Source: a virus. Taken from it: a stretch of 32,408 bases of DNA. How positions within the stretch are numbered: the first letter of the stretch is position 1; each line of letters starts with the position of its first letter. The notes beneath the pieces were generated by a model. The model was not told the origin of the DNA. It saw only the letters and a list, made by a program, of their open reading frames with translations, and did no database searches. This document shows, in pieces, positions 24,778 to 32,408 of the stretch. Where the stretch lies: positions 1 through 32,408 of IMG/VR virus record IMGVR_UViG_3300024901_000015; one strand, 5' to 3'. The position numbers and the translations under genes were made by a program.

Positions 24778-25002
24778 TTATGCGGCCTCATCATCAATAT
24801 GGCGCGGCGCATATACATCATCAAATGAAACAGCCACACCCTGCTCTTTCGCATATGCAATCAGATTGCGAGCAATTTCTGGGGAAACCTCAATTTGCCC
24901 ACTCTCTATTTTTGAAACATTGGGCTGAGATACGCCGAGCTTATCCGCAATATCTTGCTGGCTAAGCTTGAGGTCTAAACGGATTCTTTGGAAATTATTC
25001 AT
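24778..25002 (-). CDS. Cro-like HTH regulator
   Basis: 74 residues from ATG at 25002 (MNNFQRIRLDLKLSQQDIADKLGVSQPNVSKIESGQIEVSPEIARNLIAYAKEQGV). An XRE-type helix-turn-helix is clear (QQDIADKLGVSQPNVSKIESG). Position equals lambda cro: divergent from the repressor gene, first in the leftward transcript, followed by a CII-like gene and replication genes. The -10 element sits only about 7 bases before the start codon, so the message may be almost leaderless. Whether it or the 25078-25491 protein maintains lysogeny is inferred from layout. Confidence 0.82.
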   Translation of the reverse strand: MNNFQRIRLDLKLSQQDIADKLGVSQPNVSKIESGQIEVSPEIARNLIAYAKEQGVAVSFDDVYAPRHIDDEAA

Positions 25003-25009
25003 GACTCGA

Positions 25010-25085
25010 ATAATAACCAATAGTTATCAAATAATCAATAACCCATAGTAATTATGCGAAAGGGTAAAATATAACTCATGGTTAT
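25010..25085. promoter_or_regulatory. oR-like operators and leftward promoter (pR-like)
   Basis: Three 15-bp palindromes with half-sites ATAAC/GTTAT and a 5-bp centre: 25013-25027 (perfect), 25038-25052 (one half degenerate, GTAAT) and 25071-25085 (perfect). A leftward promoter is seen on the - strand: -35 TTGATT at 25038-25033 and -10 TATTAT at 25015-25010, 17 bp apart. The first operator overlaps the -10 and fills the spacer; the third overlaps the start codon of the repressor gene. I could not place the rightward promoter with confidence. Confidence 0.75.
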
Positions 25086-25491
25086 AGACACTAAAATGGC
25101 GTTTGCCACGCTGTTAAAACAGCTCTGTAATGAAAAAGACCTGAAAGAACGAGGCCGCCAGGCTTTTATTGTCAGGCTGCTGAAAAGCCACGGCTTTGTG
25201 ATAAGTCAGCCAGCGGTTAAAAAATGGTTTGATGGAGAATCGTTACCTGATACCGACAAAGCATTAGTGCTTGCGAATTATTTCAAAATTAGCGTCACCG
25301 ATCTATTATCTGGCATAAATAAAACTAACGAATCAAAAAATTTTCACCAATTTAATCAGTCACCGGTTACTTACAATTGGCCATTTGGTGACAAAATTTC
25401 CCCTTCACAATACAATTCACTATCAACCAATCAAAAAGAATTGGTGATCGCTCGAATACTTACCTACCTAGACGATAACCAAATCAAGTAA
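25078..25491 (+). CDS. CI-like phage repressor, short form
   Basis: 137 residues. The HTH lies near the N-terminus (LKERGRQAFIVRLLKSHGFVISQPAVKKWFDGESLPDTDKALVLANYFKISVTDLLSG), a pattern common in phage repressors. The C-terminal part (KNFHQFNQSPVTYNWPFGDKISPSQYNSLSTNQKELVIARILTYLDDNQ) is short and shows no LexA/S24 self-cleavage motif. It is divergent from the Cro-like gene and flanked by matching operator triplets on both sides, as lambda cI is. The start codon lies inside an operator (ATAACTC-ATG-GTTAT overlap), suggesting tight self-repression. An ATG seven codons in is an alternative start. Confidence 0.75.
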   Translation: MVIDTKMAFATLLKQLCNEKDLKERGRQAFIVRLLKSHGFVISQPAVKKWFDGESLPDTDKALVLANYFKISVTDLLSGINKTNESKNFHQFNQSPVTYNWPFGDKISPSQYNSLSTNQKELVIARILTYLDDNQIK

Positions 25492-25502: not shown

Positions 25503-26147
25503 ATGGCTTTGGTTGAATGCAAAGAGTGCAAACATCAGGTCAGCAGCAAGGCTAAAACATGCCCGAACTGCGGCTTTAAAATTTCAACCTCTTTTGGATT
25601 TTTGGGTTGGATTTTAATTATATTTAGTACTATGTTTGTTTTTTCTTTGCTCGGCAATAAGCCCCAAAAAAACAATGATTCGAGCGAAATTGATGCGCCA
25701 GCTCAGGACAATATAACAGCCCCCGTCATCAATTCATGGCAATACTCAGACTCAACAGATTCGATGGCCAGCGGAATAGTAAAAACCGCAACTATCAGAA
25801 GTGATAATGTAATTGAACTACATGCACCCTACTCCGGGGGAACATTTGGGAATCTGGTTATAAGAAAACATCCTCGATGGGGGTTAGATGTTATGTTCAC
25901 AATTAACCAAGGGCAGTTAATGTGTAGTTATAACGACTGCAAATTAAACATCAGGTTTGATGAACAAAAATATAGAACCTTCACAGCCACCGAGCCTGAC
26001 GATCATAGTAGCGATACACTATTTATCCGAGACAAAGAGAATTTTATTAAAAATCTGAAAAAATCAAAGAAAGTGACGATTGAAGCAACGTTTTACAGAA
26101 ACGGCTCTAACGGCTTTAAATTCAATACAGAAAATTTAGATTTTTAA
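25503..26147 (+). CDS. zinc-ribbon membrane protein, possible lysogenic conversion gene
   Basis: 214 residues. An N-terminal zinc ribbon with two CxxC knuckles (CKECKHQVSSKAKTCPNCGF, residues 6-25) is followed by one membrane segment (about 29-51, FGFLGWILIIFSTMFVFSLLG) and a polar C-terminal domain of about 160 residues. The C-terminal domain begins with an Asn/Asp/Ser-rich linker. It follows the repressor gene by 11 bp and is probably co-expressed in the lysogen. Genes in this position often block superinfection or alter the host; no specific activity is visible. Confidence 0.65.
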   Translation: MALVECKECKHQVSSKAKTCPNCGFKISTSFGFLGWILIIFSTMFVFSLLGNKPQKNNDSSEIDAPAQDNITAPVINSWQYSDSTDSMASGIVKTATIRSDNVIELHAPYSGGTFGNLVIRKHPRWGLDVMFTINQGQLMCSYNDCKLNIRFDEQKYRTFTATEPDDHSSDTLFIRDKENFIKNLKKSKKVTIEATFYRNGSNGFKFNTENLDF

Positions 26148-26159
26148 TAGGTCAGTTTA

Positions 26160-26633
26160 ATGCTTCAATTTATTGCATTTTTATTTTGCATTTTTGTGAT
26201 TTATCTTGGATTTTCAGAGATATTTAATTTCTTCGCACCAAAGAAAAAGAACGCTGTTACCGCCGATACAAGTCAAAAAACCATTTCAAAACAGCCATTT
26301 TTATGGGAAAAAAATAAATATACCCATTCAGGATTTGAGGTTGTAGGCGAATCCTACTATCAAAACAACATTGAAAAAATAAGATATAGAAATACTATCT
26401 TAGCTACATTGATCCCAGAAAAAAACAATATACACGATCCACATGCAGTAAGAGTTGATGTTGACGGTCGCACTGTTGGATATTTGAGCCGCGATTGCAA
26501 TCAACAATTTAGAGCTTTGTTGCTTAATGCAGGCCTTTCAAGTACAGAACCTACTAATTGCTTTGCATCTGTAATCGGCGGACATACCAAAAGTGGTAAT
26601 ACCACAAGTTACGGTATCGTTCTTGATTTTTAG
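26160..26633 (+). CDS. membrane-anchored HIRAN-domain protein
   Basis: 157 residues. One N-terminal membrane segment (LQFIAFLFCIFVIYLGFSEIFNFF, about 2-25), a short basic linker, then a HIRAN-like domain: YTHSGFEVVGESYYQNNIEKIRYRNTILATLIPEKNNIHDPHAVRVDVDGRTVGYLSRDCNQQFRALL. The 'G-E-S-x-Y-Q', 'N-x-H-D-P-x-A-V-R-V' and 'V-G-Y-L-S-R' motifs are typical. HIRAN domains bind DNA 3' ends or damaged DNA in several nucleases and helicases; here it would sit at the membrane. It ends the repressor operon just before a strong terminator. Confidence 0.72.
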   Translation: MLQFIAFLFCIFVIYLGFSEIFNFFAPKKKNAVTADTSQKTISKQPFLWEKNKYTHSGFEVVGESYYQNNIEKIRYRNTILATLIPEKNNIHDPHAVRVDVDGRTVGYLSRDCNQQFRALLLNAGLSSTEPTNCFASVIGGHTKSGNTTSYGIVLDF

Positions 26634-26650: not shown

Positions 26651-26672
26651 AACCCGCTACGGCGGGTTTTTT
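26651..26672 (+). terminator. rho-independent terminator ending the repressor operon
   Basis: AACCCGC-TACG-GCGGGTT with a T-run (26667-26672) right after the HIRAN gene. It separates the repressor operon from the pL-like promoter. Confidence 0.82.
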
Positions 26673-26695: not shown

Positions 26696-26768
26696 ACAAC
26701 ACTCGGTTATTAAATTTACAAAATAATAACTATCGGTTATTGACATATTGATAACCAATAGTTATATT
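26696..26768 (+). promoter_or_regulatory. oL-like operators with pL-like promoter
   Basis: A second triplet of the same operator: 26696-26710 (ACAAC/GTTAT, one mismatch), 26726-26740 and 26751-26765 (both perfect ATAAC-N5-GTTAT; the last is identical to 25013-25027, including its centre). A sigma70 promoter is embedded: -35 TTGACA at 26740-26745, 17-bp spacer, -10 TATATT at 26763-26768. The second operator ends on the -35 box and the third fills the spacer and touches the -10, so repressor binding should block transcription of the whole rightward operon, including the DGR. Confidence 0.82.
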
Positions 26769-27002: not shown

Positions 27003-27368
27003 ATGAGCATATCCACGAAAGTACCAGAACTGCAAGAAGGCGAAATCTATATTGGCGCCATTATCAAAAAGGACGGCACTGGTCACCACATCATCCTGTT
27101 GCCAGGTGACAAAGATGACGGCAATTGGCAATCCGCAATGGATTGGGCCAAAGAAAAAGGCGGCGACCTGCCTAACCGTGTAGAGCAATCCTTGCTGTTC
27201 GCTGACCATAAAGATGAATTCAAAGAGGATTGGTATTGGAGCAATACCACGCACGCTAAAGATTCAGAGTGGGCTTGGGGCCAGCGCTTCGACCTTGGCA
27301 GCCAGAGCTACGGTCACAAGAGCTACGACGGTTGCCGCGCCCGCGCTGTCCGCAGATTAGAAATTTAG
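27003..27368 (+). CDS. DGR variable protein 1, DUF1566/C-type-lectin-like
   Basis: 121 residues, 11 bp after the previous stop. 'GEIYIGAIIKKDGTGHHIILLPGDKDDGNWQSAMDWAKEKGGDLPNRVEQSLLFADHKDEFKEDWYWSNTTHAKDSEWAW...RARAVRRLEI' is the DUF1566-like version of the C-type lectin fold used by many DGR target proteins. The C-terminal residues 87-119 are encoded by VR1, with 10 positions corresponding to AAY codons in the template. No signal peptide or membrane segment. The invariant core is near identical to variable protein 3, so the two arose by duplication. The partner that carries it to a surface is unknown. Confidence 0.86.
   Translation: MSISTKVPELQEGEIYIGAIIKKDGTGHHIILLPGDKDDGNWQSAMDWAKEKGGDLPNRVEQSLLFADHKDEFKEDWYWSNTTHAKDSEWAWGQRFDLGSQSYGHKSYDGCRARAVRRLEI
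27261..27357 (+). repeat. DGR variable repeat VR1
   Basis: 97 bp aligned without gaps to the TR at 31481-31577. There are 16 differences: 15 at TR adenines and one at a TR thymine (TR 31499 T, here 27279 G). The last 25 bases (GC-rich, encoding CRARAVR) are identical to the TR, consistent with the initiation-of-mutagenic-homing end. Confidence 0.93.
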
Positions 27369-27383
27369 TCATTTATTTATTTA
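27369..27383 (+). repeat. 15-bp element after VR1 (TCATTTA-N-TTATTTA)
   Basis: A copy of an AT-rich 15-mer that follows each of the three VRs (also 30463-30477 and 30945-30959), differing only in the middle base. It lies just past the stop codon and is absent after the TR. Confidence 0.6.
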
Positions 27384-27396
27384 AAGGGGCGTAACT

Positions 27397-27708
27397 ATGT
27401 GCGGCGATAGCGGAATTGACACCATCATCATCACCAACCCACAAAGGGTGGCACGTCAGCAACAATCTACCCTGCCAGGCGGCATCTATACGCCAAGCAT
27501 GAATGATATTGATCTGGCCGACAGTTACGTGCCATTTGATGCATCAGGCGCCGACAACATCAGCACCGAAAACATGCTTGGCAACACAGCGGCATTCATC
27601 CTGATTGTCGGCTTTATCTTTAGTCTGGTATTGCTCGGCAGCATGATCGCCACCGGCAATGCAATCCCATCAATGCAGGGGGTTAGCTATGTTCAAAAAG
27701 GCCGCTAA
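27397..27708 (+). CDS. hypothetical membrane protein (103 aa)
   Basis: 103 residues with an AAAGGGG ribosome site. A polar N-terminal part (about 1-62: TLPGGIYTPSMNDIDLADSYVPFDASGADNIST) is followed by one membrane segment (about 65-84, AAFILIVGFIFSLVLLGSMI). The cysteine at residue 2 is not preceded by a signal peptide, so it is not a lipoprotein. It overlaps the next gene by 20 bp. No family recognised; it belongs to a run of small membrane proteins between DGR targets 1 and 2. Confidence 0.6.
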   Translation: MCGDSGIDTIIITNPQRVARQQQSTLPGGIYTPSMNDIDLADSYVPFDASGADNISTENMLGNTAAFILIVGFIFSLVLLGSMIATGNAIPSMQGVSYVQKGR

Positions 27709-27895
27709 GTCATGCGTAATCCTAATCATCGGCGCATGCATTGGCGCAGCGCTAGTTCTCTCAAAAGAGCCGCAGCCGGTGCAGGTCACTACATCGTCAC
27801 AAGCAAAATGTGCCATCAAGCACGGGCAAGACACGCACATCACAAAGTGCCAAATCTTGCGCACCGACTTGGCTTACATCGAATACCAGTGGTGA
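27689..27895 (+). CDS. small membrane or secreted protein (68 aa)
   Basis: 68 residues from ATG at 27689, with a GGGGG ribosome site; a longer upstream reading overlaps the previous gene more. One N-terminal hydrophobic segment (AAKSCVILIIGACIGAALVLS, about 5-25) is followed by about 40 polar residues with two cysteines (QAKCAIKHGQDTHITKCQIL) that could form a disulfide outside the membrane. No family recognised. Confidence 0.55.
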   Translation: MFKKAAKSCVILIIGACIGAALVLSKEPQPVQVTTSSQAKCAIKHGQDTHITKCQILRTDLAYIEYQW

Positions 27896-27900
27896 TCGCC

Positions 27901-28023
27901 ATGAGACAAGAATTTAACCAGATGCGCTGGGAGACCAGAAAACACAACGCCAAAGCGGTTATCGGCCTTGCCATTGTGGTGGCGCTGTATGGCTTGGTGG
28001 GATATTTGGAGCATGCTGCATGA
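27901..28023 (+). CDS. small membrane protein (40 aa)
   Basis: 40 residues, MRQEFNQMRWETRKHNAKAV then one membrane segment (IGLAIVVALYGLVGYL). The next gene starts in its stop codon (ATGA overlap at 28020-28023), which supports it being translated. No family recognised; a longer upstream reading in this frame runs through the preceding gene and is rejected. Confidence 0.5.
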   Translation: MRQEFNQMRWETRKHNAKAVIGLAIVVALYGLVGYLEHAA

Positions 28024-28184
28024 ATTTATTTTTTGTTCTTGCAGTGGCTTATAGCTCATTAATCATCGGCTATTCAATTCATCAAATGAAATATAAACCA
28101 GCATTCAGCATAGTGGCTGCGGCTACTTTTGTTTATTTCATCATCCCATTTGGTCTGTTTTATTTTGCCGGGGTGTATGCATGA
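28020..28184 (+). CDS. small two-pass membrane protein (54 aa)
   Basis: 54 residues. Two hydrophobic segments (about 2-19, NLFFVLAVAYSSLIIGYS, and 29-53, FSIVAAATFVYFIIPFGLFYFAGV) are joined by a short basic loop (HQMKYKP). Start and stop both overlap the neighbours by 4 bp (ATGA at each end), a strong sign of translational coupling. No family recognised. Confidence 0.6.
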   Translation: MNLFFVLAVAYSSLIIGYSIHQMKYKPAFSIVAAATFVYFIIPFGLFYFAGVYA

Positions 28185-28375
28185 ACCTCGAATGCCTAGA
28201 AATAGCCAACCAGTGCAACCAGGTAGCCGCAACCCTTACTGGAACCGCAGCATTCATGCGCTCAATCGGTGACAACGCCGCCATGAGCGAATACATGCAT
28301 AGAGCCATGGACTGGACGAACCATGCCGACCTGATGATGCGTGAAGCCTTTAGTGAAGGTCTGCCAAATGGGTAA
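28181..28375 (+). CDS. hypothetical helical protein (64 aa)
   Basis: 64 residues, helical and acidic: NLECLEIANQCNQVAATLTG...DNAAMSEYMHRAMDWTNHADLMMREAF. It starts in the stop of the preceding gene and overlaps the next by 8 bp. No membrane segment or recognised family. Confidence 0.6.
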   Translation: MNLECLEIANQCNQVAATLTGTAAFMRSIGDNAAMSEYMHRAMDWTNHADLMMREAFSEGLPNG

Positions 28376-28685
28376 ACATCAAGAGATATTGCAGTTGCTA
28401 AAGGTCTGGCAAGAGCACGGCATAAAATCCAAAGCCATGTTTGAGGCACTTTGTGCCGTTTTCCCAAACTCGCAAGATTCTGCCATCCATGAGGAATATT
28501 GGCGCCTTTATACCAACTACACCGCCATGGTGGCCGCCAAAGTGGGCGATGAGTATGGATGGCTTGAGTGGTATGCATGGGAAAACAACTTTGGCAAACG
28601 TGGCCACAATGCTGGCCCTAAAAACAACAGCAAGCCGATCAAGTCATTAAAAGACCTGATCTGGCTGATCTATGTAGAGGCTTAA
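28368..28685 (+). CDS. hypothetical protein with possible DNA-binding helices (105 aa)
   Basis: 105 residues from ATG at 28368; an earlier ATG at 28341 lies deep in the preceding gene. The sequence is helical and Trp/Tyr-rich (QEILQLLKVWQEHGIKSKAMFEALCAVFPN...EEYWRLYTNYTAMV...WLEWYAWENNFGKRG), with a basic end (NAGPKNNSKPIKSLKDLIWLIYVEA). No recognised family. Confidence 0.6.
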   Translation: MGKHQEILQLLKVWQEHGIKSKAMFEALCAVFPNSQDSAIHEEYWRLYTNYTAMVAAKVGDEYGWLEWYAWENNFGKRGHNAGPKNNSKPIKSLKDLIWLIYVEA

Positions 28686-28687
28686 CC

Positions 28688-29140
28688 ATGCGTAAACAGG
28701 GCCGAAAAATCAAACACCATAGCCGCAGCGTGCCCATGATTTTGCACCGTGAAGGTGAAATGCTGGGCGTTGAGGTGATGAGCGAAGCCGCCGCCCTCAT
28801 GGCTATCAAATATGGTGTCATGCAAAAGCAGCACTTCGACAAGCTGGTCGAGTTAAACAACATTGCCAAAGTGGCCGGCCAAGTTAAGTCAGGCAGCACG
28901 ACTCACTTCCAGCTACAGCTTGAGGCCATCTTGCAAAGCGTATTTCAGCGCTATACCAAAACGGGGCGCCTTGGCGTCAATGCTGATGAGCGTAAGCAAA
29001 TCCCCATCCTGATGGCACTTAATGAAGCCTATTGGAAAGGTCAGACAACGACCTTTTATAACCAGTGCGGCGCCGAGGTGAATGCATTTTATAAAGAGAA
29101 GTTTGCATTAAAGCCATTGGCAGAGCTTGAGGCTGCATGA
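28688..29140 (+). CDS. hypothetical protein (150 aa)
   Basis: 150 residues. A basic N-terminus (MRKQGRKIKHHSRSVP) is followed by mixed helices: REGEMLGVEVMSEAAALMAIKYGVMQKQHFDKLVELNNIAKVAGQVKSGSTTHFQLQLEAILQSVFQRY...PILMALNEAYWKGQTTTFYNQCGAEVNAFYKEKF. I recall similar unannotated proteins in other phage early operons but cannot name a family. It starts two bases after the previous stop and overlaps the next gene by 4 bp. Confidence 0.6.
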   Translation: MRKQGRKIKHHSRSVPMILHREGEMLGVEVMSEAAALMAIKYGVMQKQHFDKLVELNNIAKVAGQVKSGSTTHFQLQLEAILQSVFQRYTKTGRLGVNADERKQIPILMALNEAYWKGQTTTFYNQCGAEVNAFYKEKFALKPLAELEAA

Positions 29141-29385
29141 TTGCTGGGGTCAACTATCTGATTCGCATACGCCGTGATCGTTTAAACCCGCTCACAGGTC
29201 GCCGCATGTATCGCGTAGCCGGTTGCGAGCGCAACCATTACCCAGCATTAAAACGAGTTTGGCTATACAACCAACCGCAATGGCAATTCACCATAGTGCT
29301 GACCAAGCCAGTAAAGGTTGGAATTTTTATAAATCCACGTAAAGGGATTTGGCTAAATAAAGGTGATTCAAATGCTTCAGCTTAG
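29137..29385 (+). CDS. hypothetical basic protein (82 aa)
   Basis: 82 residues, strongly basic with many Arg and Tyr: GVNYLIRIRRDRLNPLTGRRMYRVAGCERNHYPALKRVWLY. Short beta strands are likely (QWQFTIVLTKPVKVGIFINP). ATGA overlap with the previous gene. No family recognised; nucleic-acid binding is possible from charge alone. Confidence 0.58.
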   Translation: MIAGVNYLIRIRRDRLNPLTGRRMYRVAGCERNHYPALKRVWLYNQPQWQFTIVLTKPVKVGIFINPRKGIWLNKGDSNASA

Positions 29386-29647
29386 TTTTGGCGAGAGTGT
29401 AATTGAAACGGTAGTGATAACACCCAGAAAAGAAATGCCTTTTGAAGTGTTTGCTAAATGTCATGAGCTATCAACACTTATAGAGAAATTGGATCGTGTC
29501 GATGAAAACCATGTTTTGTGGGATGAAAACAAAACCTACGACTACTGCAAGCAACTTGCTGAAGTTGAATATTCAGCCCTTCAAAACGATTGGTTTGTAA
29601 TGAATATGGAATTACCAAAAGCATTAATTGAAAGCTGGATCAAATGA
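29372..29647 (+). CDS. hypothetical acidic protein (91 aa)
   Basis: 91 residues from ATG at 29372, with AAAGGTG about 8 bases upstream; a GTG three codons earlier is an alternative. Acidic and helical at the end (EMPFEVFAKCHELSTLIEKLD...TYDYCKQLAEVEYSALQNDWF). It overlaps the gene before it by 14 bp and the one after by 4 bp. No family recognised. Confidence 0.58.
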   Translation: MLQLSFGESVIETVVITPRKEMPFEVFAKCHELSTLIEKLDRVDENHVLWDENKTYDYCKQLAEVEYSALQNDWFVMNMELPKALIESWIK

Positions 29648-30090
29648 TAGAAAACAACTACACCCTATACACCCCGCTTGGCGGCATGTTTGTGTCACCA
29701 AACGTAGATGACATGAAACGCATCATCAAGACAGAAGCCGACAGACTAGAAAAGCCAGAGCGCTTGCTTTACCTGGCTGGGCCCATGTCTGGCATTGCTG
29801 AGTTTAATCACCCTGCCTTTCATGCCGCAGCCGCAAAACTACGCGCGCAGGGCTATCAGGTAGTCAACCCTGCCGAGCTCAACCCAGATACCAGCAAAAC
29901 ATGGGATCAGTGCATGCGGCGCGATCTGCAAGCACTGGCCGACTGCAACAGCCTTGCCCTGCTGCCAGGCTGGGAGCTAAGCAAAGGCGCCCGCCTTGAA
30001 TATGACGTGGCGCAGGCTCTGGGCATGACAATTATTTTTCTTGAGGCATATCCTCAACTTTTAACTACTCAGCCAGCGCAAGCGGCTTAA
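29644..30090 (+). CDS. DUF4406 protein, nucleoside deoxyribosyltransferase-like fold
   Basis: 148 residues. From about 40 on: RLLYLAGPMSGIAEFNHPAFHAAAAKLRAQGYQVVNPAELNPDTSKTWDQCMRRDLQALADCNSLALLPGWELSKGARLEYDVAQALGMTIIFL. The 'L-A-G-P-M-S-G', 'F-N-x-P-x-F-x-x-A-A', 'V-V-N-P-A' and 'L-P-G-W-x-x-S-x-G-A-x-x-E' motifs are those of DUF4406, related to nucleoside 2-deoxyribosyltransferases. It may act on modified or salvaged nucleosides in infected cells; the exact substrate is not known. It is common in phage early regions. Confidence 0.85.
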   Translation: MIENNYTLYTPLGGMFVSPNVDDMKRIIKTEADRLEKPERLLYLAGPMSGIAEFNHPAFHAAAAKLRAQGYQVVNPAELNPDTSKTWDQCMRRDLQALADCNSLALLPGWELSKGARLEYDVAQALGMTIIFLEAYPQLLTTQPAQAA

Positions 30091-30104
30091 TGAAGGAAAG
30101 AACC

Positions 30105-30470
30105 ATGCAAATTCTATTGCCGGAACTTAATGAAGGTGAAATCAACGCTGGCTTGATGATGGGTCTTGATGGAAAACCAACTCATTGGGTGATTTTATTG
30201 CCGGGCGACAAAGAAGATGGCAACTGGCAAGACGCCACCGACTGGGCGAAAGAGCAAGGCGGTGAACTGCCGACACGCAACGAGCAATCATTGCTGTTTG
30301 CTAACACCAAGCCAGAGTTTAAACGTGACTGGTATTGGAGCGGTGAAACCCATGCCGAAAATTCAGAGTGGGCTTGGTACCAGTACTTCAACGATGGCTA
30401 CCAGCTCACCAGTCGCAAGAGCCGCGGCTATTGCCGCGCCCGCGCTGTCCGCAGAATCTCAGTCATTTAA
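30105..30470 (+). CDS. DGR variable protein 2, DUF1566/C-type-lectin-like
   Basis: 121 residues from ATG at 30105 (AAGGA 8 bases upstream); an ATG at 30090 overlapping the previous stop is an alternative. It has the same layout as variable protein 1 but is more diverged: GEINAGLMMGLDGKPTHWVILLPGDKEDGNWQDATDWAKEQGGELPTRNEQSLLFANTKPEFKRDWYWSGETHAENSEWAW...CRARAVRRISVI. VR2 encodes residues 86 to about 117. Its extra C-terminal residues (ISVI) differ from the LEI ending of proteins 1 and 3. No export signal. Confidence 0.86.
   Translation: MQILLPELNEGEINAGLMMGLDGKPTHWVILLPGDKEDGNWQDATDWAKEQGGELPTRNEQSLLFANTKPEFKRDWYWSGETHAENSEWAWYQYFNDGYQLTSRKSRGYCRARAVRRISVI
30361..30455 (+). repeat. DGR variable repeat VR2
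   Basis: 95 bp aligned without gaps to TR 31482-31576. All 13 differences fall at TR adenines, including one in the His codon (CAC to CGC). The GC-rich 3' end is identical to the TR. Confidence 0.94.
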
Positions 30471-30477
30471 TTATTTA
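30463..30477 (+). repeat. 15-bp element after VR2 (TCATTTA-N-TTATTTA)
   Basis: The second copy, starting 7 bases after VR2 ends and spanning the stop codon. The protein's C-terminal codons differ from those of the other two targets, yet this element is kept. Confidence 0.6.
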
Positions 30478-30497
30478 GTCATTTAAAGGCTTAAATC

Positions 30498-30944
30498 ATG
30501 ACCACTATTGAAATCATTGAACAAAAACAGGACGAAATTAATCGCCTGATCGCCAGCCTCAAGGCTTTTAACTCAGCCTTTCCGCGCACCATTAACAAAC
30601 CAGAACTGAAAGCCGGTGAAATCTACATTGGCACGGTAATAAATGCAGATGGCACCGGCCATCACGCCATTTTATTGCCAGGCGATAAGGATGACGGAAA
30701 TTGGCAATCTGCGATGGACTGGGCTAAAGAAAAAGGCGGCGATCTGCCCAACCGCATCGAGCAGGCAATGTTATTTGCCAACCATAAGGGCGAGTTTCAA
30801 GAGGATGTTTATTGGAGCAATACAACCCACCACAAAGAGTCAGAGTGGGCTTGGTGCCAGACCTTCGACAGTGGCTACCAGAGCAGCTATCACAAGAGCG
30901 ACGACTGTTGCCGCGCCCGCGCTGTCCGCAGATTAGAAATTTAA
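30498..30944 (+). CDS. DGR variable protein 3, DUF1566/C-type-lectin-like with N-terminal helix
   Basis: 148 residues. An extra N-terminal helix, probably coiled coil (MTTIEIIEQKQDEINRLIAS, then LKAFNSAF), precedes the DUF1566-like domain (GEIYIGTVINADGTGHHAILLPGDKDDGNWQSAMDWAKEKGGDLPNRIEQAMLFANHKGEFQEDVYWSNTTHHKESEWAW). VR3 starts at residue 115. The coiled coil could allow trimerisation or docking to a partner; proteins 1 and 2 lack it. The core is near identical to protein 1. It directly precedes avd. Confidence 0.87.
   Translation: MTTIEIIEQKQDEINRLIASLKAFNSAFPRTINKPELKAGEIYIGTVINADGTGHHAILLPGDKDDGNWQSAMDWAKEKGGDLPNRIEQAMLFANHKGEFQEDVYWSNTTHHKESEWAWCQTFDSGYQSSYHKSDDCCRARAVRRLEI
30840..30933 (+). 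repeat. DGR variable repeat VR3
   Basis: 94 bp aligned without gaps to TR 31484-31577. All 12 differences fall at TR adenines. Just upstream, 30837-30839 (GAG) differs from TR GAT at a T, which marks the 5' limit of homology. Confidence 0.94.
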
Positions 30945-30959
30945 TCATTTAGTTATTTA
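30945..30959 (+). repeat. 15-bp element after VR3 (TCATTTA-N-TTATTTA)
   Basis: The third copy, 11 bases after VR3 ends, directly before the avd start codon. VR1 and VR3 also share the preceding TAGAAATTTA. Confidence 0.6.
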
Positions 30960-30961
30960 TC

Positions 30962-31312
30962 ATGGCAAATCACACCACCCTGCCCATTTACAAAGTCGCT
31001 TATGACTTGCTCAAGGCTATCGTTGAGATCAGCAAGAACATCCCGCGAGAGTTTAAGCAAAGCATAGGCGGCAAGCTGCGCGATGAATGCGTTGAAATCG
31101 TCACGCTTATTTTCAGGGCAAATGTGTCATCAGATAAAGCCAGGCATCTGGCTAACCTGATTGAACGCCTGCAGGTGTGTGAGTTGCTATTGAGATTGGC
31201 GCGCGATATGCGCCTGATCTCAACCGGGCAATACGCCAAAGCCATTCAGCTAACAGATAGCATCGGGAAACAGGCTACTGGCTGGCGCAAATCCGCATCG
31301 TCCGTTTCATAA
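30962..31312 (+). CDS. avd: DGR accessory variability determinant (Avd)
   Basis: 116 residues, a basic four-helix-bundle type protein: LPIYKVAYDLLKAIVEISKNIPREFKQSIGGKLRDECVEIVTLIFRAN, then IERLQVCELLLRLARDMRLISTGQYAKAIQLTDSIGKQATGWRKS. 'Y-K-x-x-Y-D-L-L', 'I-P-R-E-F-K-x-x-x-G' and the closing 'I-G-K-Q-x-x-G-W' are the hallmarks of Avd. Avd forms a barrel-shaped pentamer that binds the reverse transcriptase and template RNA and is needed for mutagenic homing. It lies between the third target and the RT, the common DGR order. Confidence 0.93.
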   Translation: MANHTTLPIYKVAYDLLKAIVEISKNIPREFKQSIGGKLRDECVEIVTLIFRANVSSDKARHLANLIERLQVCELLLRLARDMRLISTGQYAKAIQLTDSIGKQATGWRKSASSVS

Positions 31313-31325
31313 AGGTCACGGCCCT

Positions 31326-32408
31326 ATGACTGCACGATTAAATAATCTGGTTTTACCGCTGGCTCAAAAGGCCACCGCCATGCGCATCACAGATACCGCT
31401 GATAGCAATCAGGCAAGGTCTGGCGCAGTTTCTTTGCTGATCGGCAATAGCCTTCGGCATAGCGACGTAGATAGTAAAACGATTCAGAGTGGGCTTGGTA
31501 CCAGAACTTCAACAATGGCAACCAGAACAACAATCACAAGAGCAACAACAATTGCCGCGCCCGCGCTGTCCGCAGATCATTACAACAGCTTTACGTTTGA
31601 GCAGCTGGTACAAGCGTACCTTGATTGCAGAAAAAACAAACGCAATACTGATAGCGCTCTGGCTTTTGAGGGAAATCTAGAGCGCAATCTATTAGATCTA
31701 TATGCAGAATTGAAATCTGGCGAATACTCACCAGGCAGAAGCATCTGCTTTGTCATCACCAGGCCAAAGCCACGTGAAGTATGGGCAGCTGATTTTCGTG
31801 ATCGGATTGTGCACCACTTGTTTTACAACCATATTTCACCACGGTTTTATGCCACATTTATTGCCGACAGTTGCGCATGCATACCTGGTCGCGGCACGCT
31901 CTATGCCGCTAAGCGGCTAGAGTCAAAAATCAGTAGCACCACAGAAAACTGGTCGAAGCCTTGCCATTACCTTAAATGCGACCTTGCCAACTTCTTTGTG
32001 GCTATCAATAAAAACATACTGCATTCACAACTTGTAAAGCGCATACATGAGCCGTGGTGGCTGTCACTAGCTGAAACAATACTGTTTCATGATCCGCGCC
32101 AAAATTACGAGCTACGCGGTGATGCAGATCGTATCAGCCTAGTGCCAGACCATAAGCGGTTAAATTCGCATGACGCTATGCATGGGCTGCCTATTGGCAA
32201 TTTGAGCAGCCAATTCTTTGCAAACATCTACCTCAACGAGCTAGACCAGTTTATTAAGCATCGTATCGGCGCCAAACATTACATCAGATATGTGGATGAT
32301 TTTGTCATTCTAAATCAATCGCCACAGTGGCTAAATCAAGCTTTGGCGCAAATCAATCAATTCTTGCCAGAAAAGCTGGAAGCGAATTTAAACCCTACCA
32401 AAACAATC
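31326..32408 (+). CDS. DGR reverse transcriptase, partial (runs off the window), with the template repeat inside its ORF
   Basis: 361 codons, open to the window edge. ATG at 31326 has AAAGG about 10 bases upstream, 13 bp after avd. The RT domain begins near residue 85 (HYNSFTFEQLVQAYLDC) and shows DGR-RT motifs: RPKPREVWAADFRDRIVHH, SCACIPGRGT, KCDLANFF with catalytic Asp219, GLPIGNLSSQFFANIYL (IGNLSSQ at 290-296, the DGR form), and YVDD at 322-325 with Asp324/Asp325. Thumb and C-terminus lie beyond the window. Residues 52-84 are encoded by the TR in a different frame. No ATG, GTG or TTG occurs between the TR and TTG 31710, inside the RT domain, so translation must start upstream of or within the TR. 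Confidence 0.93.
   Translation, partial: MTARLNNLVLPLAQKATAMRITDTADSNQARSGAVSLLIGNSLRHSDVDSKTIQSGLGTRTSTMATRTTITRATTIAAPALSADHYNSFTFEQLVQAYLDCRKNKRNTDSALAFEGNLERNLLDLYAELKSGEYSPGRSICFVITRPKPREVWAADFRDRIVHHLFYNHISPRFYATFIADSCACIPGRGTLYAAKRLESKISSTTENWSKPCHYLKCDLANFFVAINKNILHSQLVKRIHEPWWLSLAETILFHDPRQNYELRGDADRISLVPDHKRLNSHDAMHGLPIGNLSSQFFANIYLNELDQFIKHRIGAKHYIRYVDDFVILNQSPQWLNQALAQINQFLPEKLEANLNPTKTI
31481..31577 (+). repeat. DGR template repeat (TR)
   Basis: 97 bp matching VR1, VR2 and VR3. Read in the VR frame it contains ten AAC/AAT codons, the classic layout that gives wide codon diversity under adenine mutagenesis; in that frame it reads on into an unrelated tail. 40 of 41 differences between the TR and the three VRs are at its adenines. 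It lies inside the open reading frame of the RT (residues 52-84), offset by one base from the VR frame, where it encodes a Thr/Ala/Arg-rich linker. Confidence 0.94.

Follow-up and report, generated by a model that had tools for sequence, protein, structure and literature searches.

A structured RNA on the 5′ side of a phage diversity-generating retroelement template pairs with the template 3′ end

Introduction

Where on its template RNA does a diversity-generating retroelement (DGR) begin cDNA synthesis if the structured RNA of the cassette precedes the template repeat (TR) instead of following it? To our knowledge the start of DGR cDNA is known from one system, BPP-1, in which the spacer lies 3′ of the template. 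The question is raised by the DGR at positions 27003-32408 of IMG/VR virus record IMGVR_UViG_3300024901_000015, a linear record of 32,408 nucleotides that we analysed in full (the window) and in which a protein-diversifying cassette rewrites small lectin-like genes, here three of them. An earlier reading of the sequence (the preliminary description) recognised the cassette and had not noticed the RNA element in front of the TR. That element belongs to the Rfam family RT-15, and its linker pairs with the 3′ end of the TR in a helix that covaries across related loci. We consider it likely that the window carries the DGR of a temperate phage in which RT-15 serves as a 5′ scaffold, is joined by this helix to the TR 3′ end and primes cDNA synthesis from the 5′ side.

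Results and discussion

The cassette is a DGR with three recently rewritten targets

The TR (31482-31576), which has an IMH*-like CCGCGCCCGCGCTGTCCGCAGA in its 3′ end, aligns without gaps with three variable repeats (VRs), and all of these lie on the plus strand together with the genes that carry them. Target 1 (27003-27368, 121 amino acids) holds VR1 (27262-27356) at its C-terminus, target 2 (30090-30470, 126 amino acids) holds VR2 (30361-30455), and target 3 (30498-30944, 148 amino acids, with an N-terminal helix) holds VR3 (30838-30932). Targets 1 and 2 are Lcl_C-like by Pfam matches of 8e-6 and 4e-6, both under the curated cut-off, and target 3 by AlphaFold and a fold search. The preliminary description had proposed one TR and three gapless VRs in three DUF1566-like proteins, and these sequence claims hold. 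It also counted the altered TR adenines correctly (15, 13 and 12 of 32 for VR1, VR2 and VR3) and listed one further change at a T, where we find two, T31499G in VR1 and T31483G, at the repeat edge, in VR3. Non-adenine bases of the TR are altered at 1, 0 and 1 of 63 positions in VR1, VR2 and VR3, giving an adenine bias with Fisher p = 7e-8, 1e-7 and 4e-6, respectively; 40 of the 42 differences in the TR/VR core are at adenines.

Over the 231 nt upstream of the VRs the three target paralogues are 58-74% identical. Despite this, the non-adenine sites of their VRs agree with each other at 61-62 of 63 positions and with the TR at 62-63 of 63, from which we conclude that the same TR was the recent source of all three VRs. 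The agreement bears equally on the idea that the element is a decayed or inactive relic. Such a relic might be suspected from the truncation of its reverse transcriptase (RT) in the window and from the lack of population data, but it would have had to keep its non-adenine VR sites matched to the TR against a flanking paralogue divergence of 26-42%, and its RT frame is intact as far as the contig runs; we give this explanation very little credence.

Each VR ends 12-15 nt ahead of the stop codon of its gene, and the GC-rich 3′ ends of the VRs are identical. A similar AT-rich stretch (TCATTTA...TATTTA) follows each VR (27357-27390, 30456-30490 and 30933-30960), and a GC-rich stem-loop like the one after the IMH in BPP-1 is not seen in the stretches following the three VRs.

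The remaining protein components are equally recognisable. The avd gene (30962-31312, plus strand) matches Pfam bAvd at 1e-16 and the PHROG family 'Avd protein of DGR' at 1e-34, and scores 63.6 bits with the NCBIfam model DivGenRetAVD, under its cut-off of 80; matches of Avd to DARPins in the PDB look like chance and were set aside. The RT (31515-32408, plus strand, with candidate in-frame ATGs at 31326, 31380 and 31515) contains the motifs PIGNLSSQ and YVDDF, also matches brt of BPP-1, and has as its top PDB match chain 8ub7_A, deposited as 'Reverse transcriptase'. In a tree it falls together with 7 DGR references and separately from 2 group II intron RTs (support 0.998), and it scores far below the cut-off of every NCBIfam group II, retron and DRT model (retron St85, 44.5 bits against 235). 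The Avd and the YVDD RT with the DGR-specific IGNLSSQ motif that had been named from the sequence are therefore both confirmed, and the RT falls inside the DGR grouping, apart from the group II intron RTs, in the tree suggested as a check. The cassette was also said to look complete, which does not stand: the record ends within the RT gene, so the cassette is incomplete in this contig, and the RT lacks its C-terminus, with 298 amino acids from the ATG at 31515 to the contig end compared to 360-390 in relatives. The identification of the element as a DGR is nonetheless secure, and in itself ordinary.

From 31326 onwards the RT frame stays open across the TR, and since ATGs lie both upstream of the TR (31326) and inside it (31515), TR and RT overlap. 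In most loci of the lineage the RT frame likewise runs through the TR or begins within it. A TR that overlaps the 5′ end of the RT gene corresponds to 'group 3' of an earlier classification (PMC3521204).

RT-15 fills the interval between avd and the TR

The Rfam covariance model RT-15 (RF03018) matches positions 31296-31486 of the plus strand over its full length, with 164.2 bits against a gathering score of 82 (E 1e-40), and fills the interval between avd and the TR as a 5′ element of the template RNA. For comparison we assembled a set of 160 loci encoding related RTs, taken from viral contigs and bacterial genomes, and an adenine-aware scan detected TR and VRs in 154 records, the window included. 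The gap between avd and TR in these relatives has a median of 164 nt, RT-15 pair counts were made on 40 relatives, and RT-15 was found above cut-off at the same position in 8 of 8 lineage loci scanned. The association also emerges if the RT is left out of the search: scanning 295 genomes for RT-15 only gave 14 matches above cut-off, 13 of which adjoin a DGR TR and/or a DGR RT (L180 is the remaining one). No function is assigned to RT-15 in the records and literature available, and the Rfam model halts at the start of the TR and so excludes both the TR and the long-range helix described below.

One relative (L008, 9690-9990) has a short reading frame inserted between TR and RT, with RT-15 still joined to the TR; the template RNA and the RT gene are thus separable in nature. 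Another locus (L183) has RT-15, a TR and two VRs, and no DGR RT motif downstream in the available sequence; it is possibly an orphan template unit or a case of a broken RT.

On the other side of the TR, neither Phage_DGR nor RT-14 is matched in the window or in the lineage loci scanned, and conservation there looks codon-like. A BPP-1-like 3′ spacer concealed in the RT frame was rejected on both grounds, as no Rfam family matched and the conservation pattern is that of codons.

The RT-15 linker pairs with the 3′ end of the TR

The known RT-15 helices are prominent among 109 aligned non-redundant loci. Ranked second among all covarying pairs of this alignment is that of position 31343 in the RT-15 linker with position 31579, immediately beyond the TR 3′ end (UA 57, GC 30, CG 10, AU 3). 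This pair lies in a helix between a 5′ strand in the linker (31341-31349, plus strand), which ends in AUCUG, and a 3′ strand at the TR 3′ boundary (31573-31581, plus strand), which contains CAGAU; the unconstrained minimum free energy (MFE) structure of 31296-31600 includes it. Scored in this register without a gapped alignment, the strands are 94% paired, compared to 49 ± 4% after shuffling of partners, and pairing falls to 25-50% if they are slid out of register. Among 54 pairs that are independent in the phylogeny, 10 carry double compensatory changes; the Fisher p of 1.1e-7 is the lowest among all 196 position combinations, the runner-up having 9e-4. A covariation count gave 94.3% of cells paired and 17 doubly changed cells versus 3.2 in shuffled sets, a value reached in 0 of 500. 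The AUCUG:CAGAU core hardly varies, and directly after AUCUG comes a GU, including G31350, that is invariant across the set. These data give good support to base pairing between the RT-15 linker and the TR 3′ end. At 31344/31578 an A.C (or A-U, G-C) is tolerated within the helix in most loci, and the A.C mismatch beside the TR end may be functional.

This pairing also bears on a different role for RT-15, namely that of a roadblock at the TR 5′ boundary that stops reverse transcription, with BPP-1-like priming from sequence concealed in the RT frame. RT-15 does abut the TR 5′ end, and a motif at the 3′ end of avd stops cDNA synthesis in BPP-1 (PMC12875486). However, a roadblock leaves the pairing of the linker with the TR 3′ end unexplained, and BPP-1-like priming is at odds with the missing Phage_DGR and RT-14 matches 3′ of the TR, which makes this role improbable in our estimation.

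A second lineage has a 5′ RNA with an equivalent helix

The DGRs of Bacteroides phages F2 and F4 resemble that of the window in having a template RNA element between avd and TR with a helix to the TR 3′ end, and differ from it in having mostly one VR and an element not recognised as RT-15; neither RT-15 nor any other Rfam family matches them. In F2, 124 nt separate avd from TR and ∼30 nt separate TR from RT. The F2 TR 3′ boundary TGCAGATAAC pairs with the upstream GTTATCTGTG, and in relatives of F2 these strands are replaced by TTACGGAAG, which pairs with TTTCCGTAA. Column-wise mutual information missed the helix in this lineage of Bacteroidetes phages, and as its blocks align poorly we instead shuffled partners on anchored segments. 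Across 25 non-redundant loci this gave a helix score of 16.6 versus 12.9 ± 0.6 for shuffled partners (z = 6.0, 0 of 5000), with 5′ helix strands that are only 50% alike. By visual inspection of the alignment, the strand that comes after the linker is paired with the TR 5′ flank.

With the two lineages side by side, a further explanation can be weighed, in which RT-15 and the helix are an mRNA leader that controls RT translation by hiding or exposing the RT start and the TR is primed elsewhere. The location of the helix partner at the 5′ end of the RT frame, and an RT frame that in most loci crosses the TR or begins inside it, would suit such a leader. In contrast, the insert in L008 moves the RT ∼300 nt off and leaves RT-15 and helix at the TR, the 3′ strand follows the TR end in both lineages, and 3′ of the TR no spacer RNA is recognised and conservation looks codon-like. 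We therefore regard control of RT translation as an unlikely reason for the helix, if a somewhat better one than the roadblock is for RT-15.

The template RNA appears circularly permuted relative to BPP-1

As a positive control we analysed the BPP-1 lineage (48 loci with TR, a TR-RT gap of 137-178 nt and one VR each); in BPP-1 itself the scan places the Rfam Phage_DGR RNA between TR and brt. Here the primer strand Sp46-56 is joined to the TR 3′ end by base pairing, and Sp61-66 in the same way to the TR 5′ flank, and we take A56, the terminal adenine of Sp46-56, to be the primer position of BPP-1. Priming of cDNA from an internal spacer adenine has been described for this phage (PMC12875486). 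BPP-1 and the window share the TR/VR organisation, adenine mutagenesis, Avd, a DGR RT and a strand that pairs with the TR 3′ end. They differ in that BPP-1 has a single tail target and its structured RNA 3′ of the TR, between TR and RT, whereas in the window the structured RNA is located on the 5′ side of the TR, with which the RT frame overlaps. In RT-15 the strands 31341-31349 and 31352-31357 follow each other in the same order as the two Sp strands of BPP-1, but upstream of the TR, and for this reason we read the template RNA as circularly permuted; it appears to have a retron-like order. The polarity fits priming as well, since the strand 5′-AUCUG-3′ on CAGAU aims its 3′ side into the TR.

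In phage BalMu-1 of Bacillus (L197, 2295-2438) the Rfam family RT-14 sits exactly in the DGR 3′ spacer, so RT-14 also looks like a DGR template RNA.

A model for priming from the 5′ side

In the model that we consider likely, a repressor-controlled early promoter would give one RNA that contains the targets, avd, RT-15, TR and RT. RT-15 would fold, its linker (31341-31349) would pair with the TR 3′ end (31573-31581) and its P2 helix (31352-31357 with 31473-31478) would hold the TR 5′ flank, so that the TR would form a loop closed at both ends on the 5′ scaffold. Avd and RT may then bind this template RNA, and cDNA synthesis would start from the TR 3′ end, with the RT-15 side supplying the primer near G31349/G31350. 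Random bases would enter opposite the template adenines, and the cDNA would replace the VRs of the three small proteins with a C-type-lectin fold.

Several observations weigh against this model. Neither reads nor a near-identical copy of the phage were found, which leaves relatives as the source of the evidence for activity, and the C-terminus of the RT is absent from the contig. Because the core of the helix is nearly invariant, only two pairs can covary in the RT-15 lineage, 31343-31579 strongly and 31342-31580 weakly, and 31344-31578 is A.C in about one third of loci. The CAGAU bases double as target-coding sequence in the VRs. The primer base near G31349/G31350 is putative; BPP-1 primes from an adenine, and no adenine follows the helix here. 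Finally, the complementarity of the two strands in a single sequence is not significant by shuffling; this holds for the known BPP-1 helix too, and we therefore dropped it as a test and used covariation across loci.

Retrons offer a parallel for the order of parts. Retron cDNA is characteristically branched from the 2′-OH of a guanosine in the 5′ RNA. The priming RNA (msr) is followed by the template (msd) and the RT (PMC8867640), and a helix connecting the 5′ element with the template 3′ end, in the same order of parts, would be the counterpart of what we observe in the window. The window is unlike retrons in its DGR RT, its VRs, adenine mutagenesis and Avd. We tentatively propose, at a confidence just short of evenly balanced, that DGR RNAs have two layouts, and that in the second a 5′ scaffold (RT-15 in phages of Proteobacteria, an unnamed RNA in phages of Bacteroidetes) recruits the RT and primes it next to the invariant G31350 in retron order, with DGR and retron priming being circular permutations of one scheme. 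If many DGRs carry such a 5′ scaffold, their mechanism has at least two layouts. The RT-15 family would gain a function, a possible link to retrons would emerge, RTs that overlap their template would be accounted for, and it would become apparent where minimal cassettes can be cut. We see the permuted template RNA and its covariation in two lineages as the part worth following, and an earlier description of the 5′ layout may exist.

Several targets per cassette are the rule in this lineage

Three targets had been thought richer than usual. Of the 116 related loci that have 9 kb or more of upstream sequence, two VRs are present in 76, three in 29 and four in 5, some few of these counts being inflated by split matches. 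With three or four VRs in 34 of the 116 loci and two or more being the rule, the idea that three targets are exceptional was rejected, and three is ordinary for the lineage. Several VRs occur in 28.6% of DGRs, multi-VR cassettes cluster in one RT clade (PMC6642488), and DGRs with multiple VRs are also described elsewhere (PMC3521204). The targets that we read out in the lineage are small Lcl_C (DUF1566-type) proteins in which the VR occupies the very C-terminus, and a target on the opposite strand in one locus (L068) belongs to the same 129-amino-acid family. Published relatives are phages Magia, Cruim01, QDWS and Haboob. One locus (L074) has one TR and five VRs in less than 4 kb upstream of the RT.

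Orthologous targets of related phages, which are 88-96% identical upstream of the VR and have identical or nearly identical TRs, differ at 22 of 35 adenine sites versus 1 of 76 other sites in one pair (L106/L123) and at 14 of 37 versus 1 of 71 in a second (L005/L006). The adenine-specific divergence between related phages that the preliminary description proposed to look for is therefore seen in the lineage, though not for this individual phage; a search of viral contigs with the exact VR pattern for sister phages gave no match.

The targets lie in a repressor-side early operon

The placement of the cassette in an early operon, also noted before, holds and is common to annotated relatives. A Cro-like helix-turn-helix protein (24778-25020, minus strand; PHROG transcriptional repressor, 1e-9) is divergent from a CI/C2-like repressor (25078-25491, plus strand; PHROG transcriptional regulator, 3e-9), as in Magia. 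A pattern search of the window for the palindrome AATAACYNATNGTTAT gave 9 matches with both strands counted, versus 0.46 expected, and all of them fall in two clusters: one between cro and the repressor (25012-25085, or 25009-25085 at its widest), the other (26696-26766, annotated as 26726-26768 on the plus strand) over a near-consensus promoter (TTGACA-17-TATATT) that opens the DGR operon. The phage repressor would thus keep the DGR operon silent in the lysogen, and the operon would open early on induction or infection.

The closest published parallel is Burkholderia phage Magia (MT701587; PMC7883833), which has an RT 63% identical to that of the window and the same layout, namely cro, repressor, a lectin-fold target opening the early operon, later targets, Avd, RT-15, TR, RT and integrase. 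Magia differs in host and phage, and RT-15 is unmentioned in its description (PMC7883833). Our scan finds three VRs in Magia (L165) versus the two target genes named there.

For target 3 the AlphaFold model has a pLDDT of 95.8, and the best PDB match of the fold search is the C-terminal domain of Legionella Lcl (8q4e, E 1e-4, TM 0.58/0.65); a sequence search of target 3 against the PDB gave no match. By a hydropathy check the targets have no signal peptide or membrane stretch, and they sit in the repressor-side early operon distant from the tail genes, as do those of Magia and Haboob. The three targets could be receptor-binding proteins of the virion that switch host range, like Mtd in BPP-1, which would be compatible with the RNA model. 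The C-type lectin fold and the function of Mtd in the BPP-1 tail would agree with this, and a change of host range was proposed by the authors of the Magia study (PMC7883833). However, proteins of 121-148 amino acids that lack a signal peptide or membrane stretch, are encoded apart from the tail genes in all three phages, and number three per phage with divergent constant parts are not what such a role would suggest. We consider a virion role a real possibility that falls somewhat short of persuading us, and lean, in a nearly balanced choice, towards early-made recognition proteins rather than tail parts. In either case the whole phage lineage diversifies small lectin-fold proteins of the early operon to which no role is assigned.

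The two operator clusters flank the repressor unit, in which they resemble lambda OR and OL. A terminator-like hairpin (26651-26668) lies between the repressor unit and the DGR operon, and a zinc-ribbon protein (25503-26147) and a HIRAN-domain protein (26160-26633) are encoded beside the repressor.

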